Shown piece after piece: positions 4,440 to 8,207 of a stretch of 46,838 nucleotides of DNA (position 1 is the first letter of the stretch; the number at the start of each line of letters is the position of its first letter). Location: NCBI GenBank assembly GCA_007695365.1, contig REDV01000096.1:1-46838 (forward strand), given 5' to 3'. Origin of the DNA: Cryomorphaceae bacterium. GTDB taxonomy: Bacteria > Bacteroidota > Bacteroidia > Flavobacteriales_D > SKUL01. Below the pieces are notes generated by a model, which saw only the letters and a program-made list of their open reading frames with translations, was not told the origin of the DNA and searched no databases. The position numbers and the translations under genes were made by a program.

Positions 4440-4459
4440 TCAACTTGCAATCCTCTTGA

Positions 4460-4613
4460 GACTTCTCCACTTCGCGCTCCGTTCCTCCGCGCTCCGGTCG
4501 AGGTGACAACAGGTCGCATTCGAAATTTATCCTCTAAACACCTCTTGTCACTTCGACCGAAAACCGAAAGTAGCGCAGCGCAGCGAGCGCAGAGAGGTTG
4601 CAGTGGAGAAGTC
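4460..4613. repeat. Long palindromic intergenic element between convergent genes
   Basis: The outer arms GACTTCTCCACT (4460-4471) and AGTGGAGAAGTC (4602-4613) are perfect inverted repeats. The inner arms at 4495-4508 and 4546-4559 (CGGTCGAGGTGACA against the complement of TGTCACTTCGACCG) match with one mismatch. The right arm carries extra GCGCAGC-type sequence. The element lies between two converging genes, so it may act as a bidirectional terminator. Its form resembles dispersed palindromic repeats. Confidence 0.6.
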
Positions 4614-4643
4614 CCTGGTAATCAAGAAGCCTTTACTGTTCAG

Positions 4644-5195
4644 TCAAAATTCCTTGAATAACACCTCATCCAACTGCACATCGTGCGCTTCTCGCGGCAC
4701 CTTTTCCACTTCCTGAAAAGGATAGAAAATACCTGTTTTTTGCGCTTTGGATTGCGCTATTAAAAAATTATCGTAATAACCTCCACCGTATCCCAGGCGG
4801 TAGCGGCTGCGGTCAAAAGCCAGCCCCGGAACAATCACAAAATCAACCGGTCCTTCGTAGATATCCGCTTCGGCAGGATGTCGAGTGCCCATTTTGCCGA
4901 TCTCCAATTCATCAAGCGAATGCAGCACGCGGTTTTCGAGTTTACGGGCCGGTAATGCGCGGGGGCAAACCACGCACACATCCTCTGCCAACAGTTTTTC
5001 CAGAAGTGGTGTAATGTTGATTTCGGCCGGCAGTGGAATGTAAGCGTGAACAGTTCGATAGTTCTCTTTTTCAATGTGCTGGTACAATTCCTCGCATATC
5101 CATGCGTCGTATGTGCGCTTTACATCAGGATTGATTCGCGCCCGGCGCTCCAGCATTTCGGTTCTCAATTCCTTCTTTTCGGCAGTGATATCCAT
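4644..5195 (-). CDS. 5-formyltetrahydrofolate cyclo-ligase
   Basis: This is an MTHFS / YgfA-type enzyme, which converts 5-formyl-tetrahydrofolate and ATP to 5,10-methenyl-tetrahydrofolate in the cytosol, clearing an inhibitory folate. The diagnostic C-terminal motif is LGYGGGYYDNFL, preceded by VPGLAFDRSRYRLG. The N-terminal helix KKELRTEMLERRA carries the usual basic residues. The length of 183 residues is normal. It is divergent from the Rrf2 regulator. A minus-strand TATATTTG box at 5215-5222 lies 19 bases before its ATG and sits inside the first copy of the proposed Rrf2 operator, so the regulator might also affect this gene. Confidence 0.9.
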   Translation of the reverse strand: MDITAEKKELRTEMLERRARINPDVKRTYDAWICEELYQHIEKENYRTVHAYIPLPAEINITPLLEKLLAEDVCVVCPRALPARKLENRVLHSLDELEIGKMGTRHPAEADIYEGPVDFVIVPGLAFDRSRYRLGYGGGYYDNFLIAQSKAQKTGIFYPFQEVEKVPREAHDVQLDEVLFKEF

Positions 5196-5210
5196 TTCAA
5201 AAATTCAATT

Positions 5211-5229
5211 CGGACAAATATATCCTTTA
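5211..5229. promoter_or_regulatory. Candidate Rrf2 operator, copy 1 (CGGACAAA-n4-TCCTTTA)
   Basis: CGGACAAATATATCCTTTA carries a GGAC-n6-ATCC dyad core (5212-5225). It shares 15 of 19 positions, with identical spacing, with the element at 5723-5741. It overlaps the minus-strand -7 box of the folate gene and the expected -33 region of the Rrf2 promoter, where a repressor would be expected to bind. Confidence 0.5.
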
Positions 5230-5243
5230 TTGGAAATATTCCG

Positions 5244-5251
5244 TAAATTTG
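5244..5251 (+). promoter_or_regulatory. TAnnTTTG -7 promoter box of the Rrf2 gene
   Basis: TAAATTTG lies 18 bases before the ATG at 5270. A purine-rich AAGAAAGGA precedes the ATG. Confidence 0.5.
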
Positions 5252-5269
5252 CGCCAACAAAAGAAAGGA

Positions 5270-5704
5270 ATGTTTTCAAAAGCATGTGAATACGGAATCC
5301 GGGCTACGCTGCACATCGCACAGCAATCGCAGAATGAAAAGCGGGTAAGCCTGAAAGGCATTGCCGAATCCATCGACTCTCCGGTGGCTTTTACGGCGAA
5401 GATTCTGCAGCAGTTGGTTCACGCCGGTGTGATTCACTCGGTGAAAGGTCCGATGGGTGGTTTTGAAATGAATGCGCAGCAACTGTACGATGCGCGATTG
5501 AGCCACATTGTTTCGGCCATTGACGGCGACCAGATTTACAGAGGTTGCGGATTGGGATTAAAAGCCTGCGATGCGCAGAAGCCTTGCCCTGTGCACGATC
5601 AGTTTAAACTGGTGCGCGATGAATTACAACGCATGCTCGAAACCACTTCCATTCGCGAACTGGCCAATGGCTTAAACCAGGGGCAAACCTTTTTGAGACA
5701 GTAA
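5270..5704 (+). CDS. Rrf2 family transcriptional regulator with three cysteines
   Basis: This is a winged-helix Rrf2 protein (IscR/NsrR class). From the ATG at 5270 it starts MFSKACEYGIRATLHIA, the canonical Rrf2 N-terminus; the frame-extending TTG at 5249 is part of the promoter box. The DNA-binding wing region reads VHSVKGPMGGF-like (HSVKGPMGGFEM). Three cysteines, Cys93, Cys100 and Cys106 (GCGLGLKAC, KPC), form the spaced triad that in Rrf2 family members can hold an iron-sulfur cluster. It is the first gene of a run with a globin and an iron-sulfur repair protein, so an NO- or Fe-S-sensing role is inferred, NsrR-like in function. The duplicated operator suggests autoregulation. Confidence 0.85.
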   Translation: MFSKACEYGIRATLHIAQQSQNEKRVSLKGIAESIDSPVAFTAKILQQLVHAGVIHSVKGPMGGFEMNAQQLYDARLSHIVSAIDGDQIYRGCGLGLKACDAQKPCPVHDQFKLVRDELQRMLETTSIRELANGLNQGQTFLRQ

Positions 5705-5722
5705 AAAAATTTGAAACTAAAT

Positions 5723-5741
5723 CGGACAAAATCGTCCTTTA
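5723..5741. promoter_or_regulatory. Candidate Rrf2 operator, copy 2 (CGGACAAA-n4-TCCTTTA)
   Basis: This is the second copy of the element at 5211-5229, here with a perfect GGAC-n6-GTCC dyad (5724-5737). It ends two bases before the ATG of the truncated hemoglobin gene. Binding here would block transcription into, or translation of, the globin and downstream genes. Confidence 0.5.
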
Positions 5742-5743
5742 AA

Positions 5744-6136
5744 ATGCCGAAAACCGACATTACATCCCTGGCCGACATCAAGCAATTGGTGAATACATTT
5801 TACGACCGCGTGCGCGAGGACGACCTGATCGGACCGGTTTTCGAAAAAATAGTTCAGGATCGCTGGCCCGAACACCTGGAAAAGATGTACCGCTTCTGGC
5901 AAACGGTTTTACTGGGCGAACATACCTATTACGGTAGTCCGTTTCCTCCACACAGCAAATTGCCTATTGAAAAGAAGCACTTCGACCGCTGGATAAGCCT
6001 GTTCTCCGAAACTGTAAGTGAACTATTTTCCGGTGACAAGGCAGACGAAGCCTTTTGGCGGGCCGAAAAAATGGCGCAGATGTTTCAATTCAAAATCGAT
6101 CATATTAAGAACAACCCCAATAAAACACCACTATGA
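5744..6136 (+). CDS. Group III truncated hemoglobin
   Basis: This is a 2-on-2 globin of about 130 residues. From the ATG at 5744 it runs MPKTDITSLADIKQLV with FYDRVREDDLIGPVF and a YRFWQTVLLGEHTYYG segment, typical of the group III subclass found in Campylobacter Ctb and many Bacteroidota. The proximal heme ligand is probably His70 in PPHSKLPI, followed by KKHFDRWI. Such proteins bind O2 and NO and protect against nitrosative stress or store oxygen; the activity here is inferred. The upstream TTG at 5711 would include the operator dyad in the coding region and is rejected. The stop overlaps the next ATG (ATGA), showing translational coupling. Confidence 0.85.
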   Translation: MPKTDITSLADIKQLVNTFYDRVREDDLIGPVFEKIVQDRWPEHLEKMYRFWQTVLLGEHTYYGSPFPPHSKLPIEKKHFDRWISLFSETVSELFSGDKADEAFWRAEKMAQMFQFKIDHIKNNPNKTPL

Positions 6137-6573
6137 TCACTGTAAAATATCCCGTGGCATTAGCGGCTGTTTTTCTGTGGATTGGTTTCGTTTGTGCCAT
6201 CAGCTTTATGGAGGCCTGGCTCAAGTTTCGGGCACCGGGAATCACGGTCCCCCTCGGCTTGGGAATTGGTCGATTGGTATTTCATGCCCTCAACAAAATG
6301 GAATGGGTATTTGCGGTTGCCATTTTGGTCAACATGCTGTTTGCAGGTTACACTCCCAAATGGTCTCACCTGTTTTTCGTGCTGCCGCTTTTGTTGCTTG
6401 CCATTCAAACGGCATGGTTGCTTCCCGCGCTCGATGCCCGCGCCGAAATGCACATTCAGGGATTGAAAGTCCCATCGTCGAACAAGCATTTTATATACGT
6501 GGCTATGGAAGCACTAAAAGTCATTGCCCTTTTGATTTTCGGACTCACCCTTTTTAAACACACTACCCCATGA
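6133..6573 (+). CDS. Four-helix integral membrane protein of unknown function
   Basis: I do not recognise a named family. The 146 residues contain about four hydrophobic helices: residues ~6-28 (VALAAVFLWIGFVCAISF), ~52-72, ~77-97 (FFVLPLLLLAIQTAWLLPAL) and ~120-141. Polar conserved-looking stretches are MEAWLKFRAPG after helix 1, IGRLVFHALNKMEW before helix 2 and DARAEMHIQGLKVPSS before helix 4. His and Met residues near the membrane could bind heme or metal, but this is speculation. ATGA overlaps join it to the globin upstream and the tryptophan dioxygenase downstream, so it is translated as part of this operon. Confidence 0.7.
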   Translation: MITVKYPVALAAVFLWIGFVCAISFMEAWLKFRAPGITVPLGLGIGRLVFHALNKMEWVFAVAILVNMLFAGYTPKWSHLFFVLPLLLLAIQTAWLLPALDARAEMHIQGLKVPSSNKHFIYVAMEALKVIALLIFGLTLFKHTTP

Positions 6574-7478
6574 CACGCGAAAAACTCATTCAGTCTATCG
6601 AAGAAAAGTACGAGCAACTCGGAGAAAACCCGGATATCTACCTCAATGGTCTGCTGCAAGCCAAACCCATCAATTACTGGGATTATGTAGAAACCGAAAC
6701 GCTGCTCTCGCTCCAAAAACCCCGCACGGATTTTAAAGATGAGATGATCTTTATCATGTACCACCAGGTAACGGAACTGGTGCTGAAGATGATGGTTCAT
6801 GAGTTGGAACAGCTGGTTTTCGAAGATCTGGGCGATGACATTTGGGTAGATAAAATCAACCGGCTCAACCGATATACCGGGCTACTCATCAACTCATTTG
6901 ATGTGATGCGGTCGGGCATGAATTACGACGACTACAACACCTTTCGGCACACCTTGGCTCCTGCCAGTGGATTTCAAAGTGTTCAGTTTCGCTACATTGA
7001 AATTTACTGCACTCCGCTCGTCAACCTGATCAACGAAAACGGAAAAGAGCGCCTCAGCCCCACCCCGGATATGGACGAGTATTTTGAACACATCTACTGG
7101 AAGGACGCCGGACTGAATCGCAAAACCGGTAAGAAAACCCTAACGCTTCGTCAGTTTGAAGAAAAATATCTCGGCAATCTGAAATCGCTTGCGCAAAAAG
7201 TGAGCGGCCATACCCTTCAGGAAAAGTTTGCTGCCATGGCCTCACCTTCACCGGAACTTACCGACAAAATGCGAGAATTCGACCGAATGTACAATGTAGA
7301 ATGGCCACTGGTTCACCTGCAAACGGCTCGCCACTACCTGGATAGCAAAGGTGAAGAAAAGGCAGCCACCGGCGGAAGCGAATGGAAAAAATATTTACAC
7401 CCCAAATTTCAACAACGAAAATTTTTCCCGGAGCTATGGACTGAAAATGAAGTCGCTTCCTGGGGAGACGAATCTTAA
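6570..7478 (+). CDS. Tryptophan 2,3-dioxygenase
   Basis: This heme enzyme inserts O2 into L-tryptophan to give N-formylkynurenine, the first step of the kynurenine pathway. Family motifs are MYHQVTELVLKMMVHELEQL (His65 matches the substrate-site histidine), FRHTLAPASGFQSVQFRYIE (Arg141 matches the substrate carboxylate-binding arginine) and a C-terminal VHLQTARHYL...ATGGSEWKKYL block in which His249 is the likely proximal heme ligand. The family's GTGGS reads ATGGS here. The length of 302 residues is normal. It is coupled by ATGA to the membrane protein and followed 12 bases later by the RIC gene. No other kynurenine-pathway gene is adjacent, so its place in an NO-type operon is unexpected. 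Confidence 0.9.
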   Translation: MTREKLIQSIEEKYEQLGENPDIYLNGLLQAKPINYWDYVETETLLSLQKPRTDFKDEMIFIMYHQVTELVLKMMVHELEQLVFEDLGDDIWVDKINRLNRYTGLLINSFDVMRSGMNYDDYNTFRHTLAPASGFQSVQFRYIEIYCTPLVNLINENGKERLSPTPDMDEYFEHIYWKDAGLNRKTGKKTLTLRQFEEKYLGNLKSLAQKVSGHTLQEKFAAMASPSPELTDKMREFDRMYNVEWPLVHLQTARHYLDSKGEEKAATGGSEWKKYLHPKFQQRKFFPELWTENEVASWGDES

Positions 7479-7490
7479 AAACAAAATATC

Positions 7491-8207
7491 ATGAATATTA
7501 CAGAAAAACACATCATCGGCGAACTGGTGGCCAGGGATTACCGCGCTGCCAGCGTATTCAAAGCGCACAATATTGATTTTTGCTGCAACGGCAACCGCAC
7601 CATAGCAGATGCCTGCGCAAAACACGGACTCAATTCTGAACAAATCATTGGTGAACTGGAAAACGCCATGACACAAGCGAACAGCGGCAACATTGATTTT
7701 CAATCGTGGCCACCCGACTTGCTGGTCGATTACATCGAGAAAAAACACCACCGTTACGTGGAGGCCAAAATACCTGAGATCAAAGCCTATCTCAACAGAA
7801 TCGCCAAAGTGCACGGCGACAACCACCCCGAATTGCACGTGGTTGAGCAGCACTTTGCCGAGTCGTCAGGTGCCTTGGTTGCACACATGAAAAAGGAAGA
7901 ACTGATCCTGTTTCCGTTTATCAAAAAGCTGGCTGCGGCAGATGAAAACGATGAGCAGTTACCCGCTCCACATTTCGGTACGGTAGAGAACCCCATTGCC
8001 ATGATGCACGAAGAGCACGATGCCGAGGGCGAGCGCTTCCGCGAAATAGCGCGACTCACGAACAATTACGAACCACCGGAGGATGCGTGCAATACTTACC
8101 GCGTAGCATTTGCGCTGCTGCAGGAGTTTGAAAACGATTTGCACATGCACATCCACCTCGAGAACAACATTCTTTTTCCGATGACAATAGAGCTGGAGAA
8201 GGAGTGA
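7491..8207 (+). CDS. ric: Iron-sulfur cluster repair di-iron protein (RIC / ScdA / YtfE family)
   Basis: This cytosolic protein repairs iron-sulfur clusters damaged by nitric oxide or peroxide. The N-terminal DUF542 domain (residues ~5-60) shows GELVARDYRAASVFKAHNI followed by DFCCNGN with the paired cysteines. The remainder is a hemerythrin-like four-helix bundle with di-iron ligands in YIEKKHHRYVE, EQHF, HMKKEELILFPF, MMHEEHDAE and HMHIHLENNILFP. The length of 238 residues is normal. It closes the Rrf2-globin-TDO gene run. In other bacteria ric is a standard NsrR target, which supports the nitrosative-stress reading of the whole cluster. Confidence 0.9.
   Translation: MNITEKHIIGELVARDYRAASVFKAHNIDFCCNGNRTIADACAKHGLNSEQIIGELENAMTQANSGNIDFQSWPPDLLVDYIEKKHHRYVEAKIPEIKAYLNRIAKVHGDNHPELHVVEQHFAESSGALVAHMKKEELILFPFIKKLAAADENDEQLPAPHFGTVENPIAMMHEEHDAEGERFREIARLTNNYEPPEDACNTYRVAFALLQEFENDLHMHIHLENNILFPMTIELEKE

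Follow-up and report, generated by a model that had tools for sequence, protein, structure and literature searches.

Paired palindromes around an Rrf2 regulator gene are candidate operators of a nitrogen-oxide regulon in many Bacteroidota

Results

The window, the whole 46.8-kb stretch of DNA analysed here, carries a gene for an Rrf2-family regulator (rrf2) that is divergent from a gene for 5-formyltetrahydrofolate cyclo-ligase (5-FCL) and is flanked by two similar dyads, copy 1 and copy 2 (Table 1). Past copy 2 lies the operon globin-u146-TDO-ric, which encodes a truncated globin, a 146-aa membrane-like protein (u146), a divergent tryptophan-2,3-dioxygenase-like (TDO-like) protein and an iron-sulfur cluster repair protein. 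The ORF list placed the Rrf2 start at TTG 5249; we replaced it with the conserved ATG 5270 (MFSKACEYG...). At about 4450-4620, an intergenic G+C-rich, inverted-looking sequence (CACTTCGCGCTCCG... / ...GTAGCGCAGCGCAGCGAGCGCAG) resembles a dispersed intergenic repeat.

Table 1 Positions of genes and sequence elements around rrf2 in the window
Feature	Position	Strand	Basis
5-FCL, divergent from rrf2	4644..5195	-	TIGR02727 147.6 bits, cut-off 84.9
Candidate operator copy 1, 28-bp extended dyad	5205..5232	.	Core GGACAAATATATCC at 5212-5225; matrix score 25.7
Predicted -7 box TATATTTG, divergent 5-FCL promoter	5215..5222	-	Inside copy 1 core
Predicted -7 box TAAATTTG, rrf2 promoter	5244..5251	+	TAnnTTTG, 18 bp past copy 1 core
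rrf2, Rrf2-family regulator, 144 aa	5270..5704	+	Pfam PF02082; E7, C93, C100, C106 and H109 conserved
TAAAAAAATTTG element across the rrf2 stop codon, upstream of copy 2	5702..5713	+	A7T3 conserved in relatives
Candidate operator copy 2, 28-bp extended dyad	5717..5744	.	Core GGACAAAATCGTCC at 5724-5737; matrix score 23.9
Truncated globin	5744..6136	+	Pfam Bac_globin; closest solved structure a group III globin (2ig3)
u146, conserved 146-aa membrane-like protein (GAISFMEAWLKFRAPGIT...)	6133..6573	+	Recurs beside globin and TDO genes in relatives
Divergent tryptophan-2,3-dioxygenase-like protein	6570..7478	+	Pfam Trp_dioxygenase, N-terminal part only
ric, YtfE/ScdA-type iron-sulfur cluster repair protein	7491..8207	+	NCBIfam TIGR03652 245.8 bits, cut-off 204.7

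Two products of the operon are less readily named. The u146 protein had no family match in Pfam or NCBIfam. The TDO-like protein reached 103 bits on the NCBIfam model against a cut-off of 390; a weak second stretch aligned the histidine in its WPLVHLQ to WRFRHMR of bacterial TDO. The protein may bind heme but serve some other purpose. The TDO-like gene recurs in globin/ric operons of several relatives.

The preliminary description of this DNA had reported a repeated 19-mer sharing 15 positions, a GGAC-n6-(G/A)TCC core in each copy, and a second copy abutting the globin start codon. All of this was borne out by the window sequence. Copy 1 (CGGACAAATATATCCTTTA, 5211-5229) and copy 2 (CGGACAAAATCGTCCTTTA, 5723-5741) are identical at 15/19 positions, with all four spacer bases being the differing ones; GGAC-N6-RTCC is present in both, and 2 bp separate the end of copy 2 from the globin ATG at 5744. 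Matched without mismatches, GGACAAA-N4-TCCTTT occurs only at copies 1 and 2, in the window as well as in the organism's own 3.52-Mb genome. With 2-3 mismatches, this short pattern gave 23 matches in the window where 16.9 were expected, and its mismatch-tolerant search of the own genome gave 89 matches vs 171 for a reversed-pattern control. We dropped the mismatch-tolerant pattern as evidence, as it is too common in both window and genome; the significance of the repeat therefore rests on comparison with relatives.

For this comparison, a 28-bp symmetrised matrix was trained on the relatives' rrf2-promoter sites alone, with the two sites of the window excluded. Across the 46.8 kb, it ranked copies 1 and 2 first and second (25.7 and 23.9), followed by a next-best score of 2.9, and its maximum on first-order Markov sequences of the same length was 4.3 on average and 14.2 at the highest in 40 trials. 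Two one-mismatch matches elsewhere in the own genome (C69, C92) were rejected, their matrix scores being near or below zero. We also built a sequence-only covariance model from 49 sites, the two window sites included. Up to an E-value of 10, copies 1 and 2 were the only sites of the own genome among the matches listed, and a single congeneric genome likewise had two sites among the matches listed. Random recurrence throughout the genome, the outcome that would have spoken against the motif, was thus not seen among those matches; as candidates are capped in number for each genome, weaker sites may have escaped the search.

We examined conservation in the 80 closest Rrf2 homologs, taken from contigs of one genome per species (loci L031-L110); these relatives are not an even sample and belong to Bacteroidota wherever a group is given. 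The site lies upstream of rrf2 in about 75 of the 80, in most of them about 48-63 bp ahead of the ATG, and its consensus, about WAATnnGGAY-AAWTTT-RTCCnnATTW, is a near-perfect palindrome. A second dyad directly follows the rrf2 stop in 45/80 loci at a strict threshold (null, 5/1449 windows), and further loci have a variant such as GGATAAAAAGGTCTTAATATC at that place. Conservation ahead of orthologous rrf2 genes, on which the earlier proposal had been staked, was therefore found at both positions.

In an even phylum sample of 198 genomes, 24 had an Rrf2 homolog at E ≤ 1e-30. An upstream site scoring ≥ 14 was present at 12 of 23 readable homologs vs 2/261 control windows, and nine of the 23 had a second copy. 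The sites go with the closer homologs, and homologs at about 47% identity and below are mostly without a recognisable site. An order-level sample had a homolog in 19/120 genomes; a model match at E ≤ 0.01 was found in 9/19 genomes with it vs 3/101 without. The matches in these three Rrf2-less genomes (G033, G075 and G109) were taken as chance: none is at a nitrogen-oxide gene, and that of G033 falls within a methylguanine-methyltransferase-like gene. Judged by these comparisons, the dyads are real candidates for binding sites, conserved across many Bacteroidota.

The placement of copy 1 is tied to a promoter. The flavobacterial sigma-A -7 box is TAnnTTTG, at -12 to -5 (PMC9723704). Such a box begins 15-20 bp past the dyad core in 64/75 loci (null, 0.4%), and the rrf2 start codon usually follows 16-22 bp beyond it. 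TTG occurs 19-22 bp ahead of the box in 39 instances over 65 promoters, often as the operator's own TTG. Because TAnnTTTG follows the core at 15-20 bp, operator 1 is predicted to cover the -33 region, a classic position for a repressor to bind. The overlap of copy 1 with the rrf2 -33 region had been claimed from the window, where the box lies 18 bp past the core, and the relatives have the same geometry. Its overlap with the -7 box of the divergent folate gene had been claimed too, and TATATTTG indeed reads within the core at 5222-5215 on the minus strand; its gap to the 5-FCL ATG (5195) resembles the box-to-ATG gap of rrf2. Two other loci that place the site at 5-FCL support a real link to this gene: in G129, some 8 kb away from rrf2, 5-FCL and globin genes diverge from a shared gap that holds the site (L172), and in L056 the operator is likewise at a divergent 5-FCL/globin arrangement. 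Across L172, L056 and the window (4644-5195), 5-FCL points away from globin or rrf2 each time, and the operator lies in the gap.

The genes downstream of copy 2 in relatives include ric, globin, quinol NO reductase (qNOR), a cbb3-like oxidase and others, and copy 2 keeps an almost unchanged distance from the rrf2 stop whichever gene comes next. The sigma-A box found past copy 1 in 64/75 loci was absent downstream of copy 2 (TAnnTTTG in 0/45). That the copy 2 core itself serves as the -7 box of the downstream gene was unsupported, with the T...G combination in the sense direction in 9/45 only. The copy-to-copy spacing of 502-518 bp was set aside as evidence of DNA looping, because the length of rrf2 and two short gaps fix it.

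A second conserved element, TAAAAAAATTTG, which the preliminary description had missed, accompanies copy 2. On the plus strand of the 80 loci, A7T3 occurs 39 times, 35 of them at the rrf2 stop. The A-tract and copy 2 go together in 46/48 loci (Fisher P about 1e-8, kinship ignored).

In about a dozen loci (e.g. L033:4483-7294), a CcoN-like heme-copper subunit scoring 247 bits against a cut-off of 583 is encoded past copy 2, accompanied by a FixO-cytochrome c fusion. The enzyme could be NO reductase-like or a variant cbb3 oxidase.

The protein encoded between the dyads belongs to the Rrf2 family by PF02082 (79.1 bits, cut-off 30) and by its predicted fold, and is the only Rrf2-family match in its own genome. 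Its scores stayed below the cut-offs of the curated models for NsrR (23.3 bits, cut-off 182), IscR (54.2, cut-off 207.55) and the SUF regulator (55.9, cut-off 110.65), and well below those for CymR (36.7) and RirA (29.7). By these models, it is an equivalog of neither NsrR nor IscR. E7 and a C-x6-C-x5-C-x2-H loop are present in 80/80 relatives, eight loci differing only at other residues of the search pattern; the conservation of E7 is partly favoured by the search, whose six seeds included MFSKACEY. Structure prediction gave a model with a mean pLDDT of 86, less confident in the cysteine loop, that matches the Rrf2 structures of RsrR, CymR, NsrR and IscR.

Sites were also found away from rrf2. 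Neighbour genes were grouped into clusters and then named by family searches. Two of the distant sites are at ric genes, one inside a nos cluster (L136) and one at a second ric (L175), and others precede a methyltransferase-ric operon (L157, L158) and u146-TDO (L174). Among genes of nitrogen-oxide metabolism, sites were present at NirK, a copper nitrite reductase fused to cytochrome c (L176; TIGR02376 356.7 bits, cut-off 296.3), at a cytochrome c-nosZ cluster (L177; NosZ fragment, 367 bits) and at a cupin and qNOR-like pair (L171). The name given to the L171 protein comes from its similarity to a 745-aa protein (cluster 18) that has the NorB-type domains PF22085 and PF00115. A di-heme peroxidase (L178) and a formate/nitrite transporter (L121) also had sites. 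No isc or suf genes were among the targets examined, and in a small control the site was absent at ric in three loci of two Rrf2-less genomes. From their annotations, the targets share a common theme of nitrite, NO and N2O; sites at globin, ric, NO reductase-like, nirK and nos genes correspond to an NO-detoxification regulon of the NsrR kind.

Discussion

We consider it highly likely that the dyads are operators of the Rrf2 protein encoded between them, and that this protein is an autoregulated, NsrR-like repressor of a nitrogen-oxide regulon that is released by NO. The assignment follows from the sites and their conservation, the fixed promoter geometry, the targets and the way in which the sites go together with this Rrf2 subfamily. 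The proposal made from the window was a repressor acting on its own gene and at a second target site; at the level of comparative genomics, this interpretation is supported by the conservation of the upstream and second copies and by the distant nitrogen-oxide targets. An Fe-S-type Rrf2 protein would thus probably repress its own gene and genes for NO, nitrite and N2O until NO appears. From these patterns we infer that Rrf2 binds the dyads, that it represses, that it carries an Fe-S cluster and that NO is what it senses. Against the proposal, neither 5-FCL nor the TDO-like gene is usually counted among genes for NO detoxification.

In the proposed mechanism, Rrf2 is most likely a dimer with an Fe-S cluster, for which C93, C100 and C106, plus E7 or H109, are candidate ligands. 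As long as NO is absent, this dimer would occupy GGAY-N6-RTCC. Sitting on copy 1, it would mask the -33 region of the rrf2 promoter as well as the -7 box of 5-FCL and so hold both promoters at a low level; sitting on copy 2, it would keep transcription from running into globin-u146-TDO-ric. Once NO appears, damage to the cluster would release the protein from DNA. Globin and Ric would then be induced for detoxification and Fe-S repair, and more regulator would be made, providing negative feedback.

The same operators and regulator might instead respond to Fe-S status, redox or oxygen, as in IscR or RsrR, with nitrogen-oxide genes being controlled because they are used at low oxygen. We judge this unlikely. 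The targets are genes for NO, nitrite and N2O and for Fe-S repair, and isc and suf are absent among those examined, although the SUF regulator and IscR models score far above the NsrR model, all three below their cut-offs. Like IscR and the SUF regulators, the protein appears to be an Fe-S-type Rrf2, autoregulated as we infer here, and the histidine two residues past its third and last cysteine recalls the IscR ligand set; those regulators have Fe-S assembly targets, whereas none is found among the targets examined here, and the scores lie below both cut-offs. Of the solved structures, the closest in both sequence profile and fold is RsrR of Streptomyces, for which an N-terminal Glu ligand has been reported. 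The two proteins share about 22% identity in the structural alignment, and the protein described here differs in its three-cysteine loop and nitrogen-oxide targets.

We think it improbable that copy 1 is the sole operator and that copy 2, as a degenerate or structural relic, has no effect on regulation in this genome. Copy 2 is conserved ahead of differing genes (ric, globin, qNOR and the cbb3-like oxidase), a conserved upstream element accompanies it, and its score in the window almost equals that of copy 1; these points weigh against a relic even though no promoter box lies past copy 2 and it keeps its place relative to the rrf2 stop codon, not to whichever gene follows. We give very little credence to the dyad being the site of another regulator, such as a CRP/FNR-like protein controlling rrf2 and its neighbours. 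There is a precedent in HcpR, the FNR-like regulator defined for Bacteroides hcp by Rodionov et al. 2005 (PMC1274295), but its published site, TTGACnnnnGTCAA in some species, is unlike the dyad (PMC1274295). Moreover, the site stays with rrf2 in most relatives while the neighbours change, ric loci of Rrf2-less genomes are without it, and rrf2 is autogenously placed. Chance similarity is practically negligible: common as the short pattern is at 2-3 mismatches, a matrix trained on other genomes puts exactly copies 1 and 2 on top, and conservation of the site across the phylum already refutes it.

The NO-responsive repressor that we favour resembles NsrR of Proteobacteria, Bacillus and Streptomyces, where an Rrf2 protein is likewise linked to an NO-detoxifying globin and Ric (dnrN/ytfE), in some species also to denitrification genes, and the operator is palindromic. 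The motif itself had been said to differ from the E. coli NsrR site; the published NsrR motif of Proteobacteria and Gram-positives, gATGyAT-N5-ATrCATc (Rodionov et al. 2005, PMC1274295), is clearly different from GGAY-N6-RTCC. NsrR loses its hold on DNA when NO nitrosylates its cluster. The cluster of NsrR has the ligand D8 (PMC13404960) with three cysteines, whereas here E7 stands at that place together with the C-x6-C-x5-C-x2-H loop, its three cysteines being present in 80/80 relatives. NsrR systems have the flavohemoglobin Hmp, and the window has a single-domain globin. With NsrR-like targets and scores below the curated cut-offs, the protein would therefore work like NsrR by its targets without being an established member of the NsrR subfamily.

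An Rrf2 gene has been noticed before beside nosZDFY in clade II nos clusters of Bacteroidota (PMC6264515) and beside the nos cluster of Melioribacter (PMC3534657), in the passages concerned without an operator or regulon. Our search of the open literature, with subscription journals and RegPrecise outside it, returned no earlier description of this operator. Comparative genomics supports extending the picture beyond the two sites of this genome, to a nitrogen-oxide regulon shared by many Bacteroidota. We lean, by a modest degree, towards a separate, Bacteroidota-wide class of nitrogen-oxide-sensing Rrf2 proteins with their own ligand loop (E7, C-x6-C-x5-C-x2-H) and operator, acting at nirK, NO reductase, the clade II nosZ cluster, ric and globin. 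Such a class would include a portable cassette, operator 1 - rrf2 - TAAAAAAATTTG - operator 2, whose downstream gene varies by lineage.

The greenhouse gas N2O is consumed by carriers of clade II nosZ, among which Bacteroidota are numerous. According to PMC6264515, regulatory knowledge is limited to Proteobacteria and Firmicutes, and the control of nitrogen-oxide genes outside these groups is described as unknown. A phylum-wide site model that picks out nirK, NO reductase-like, nosZ, ric and globin genes would make this regulation testable and the regulon readable from genomes. It would also tie two unexpected genes, 5-FCL and that for the TDO-like putative heme protein, to nitrogen-oxide stress.
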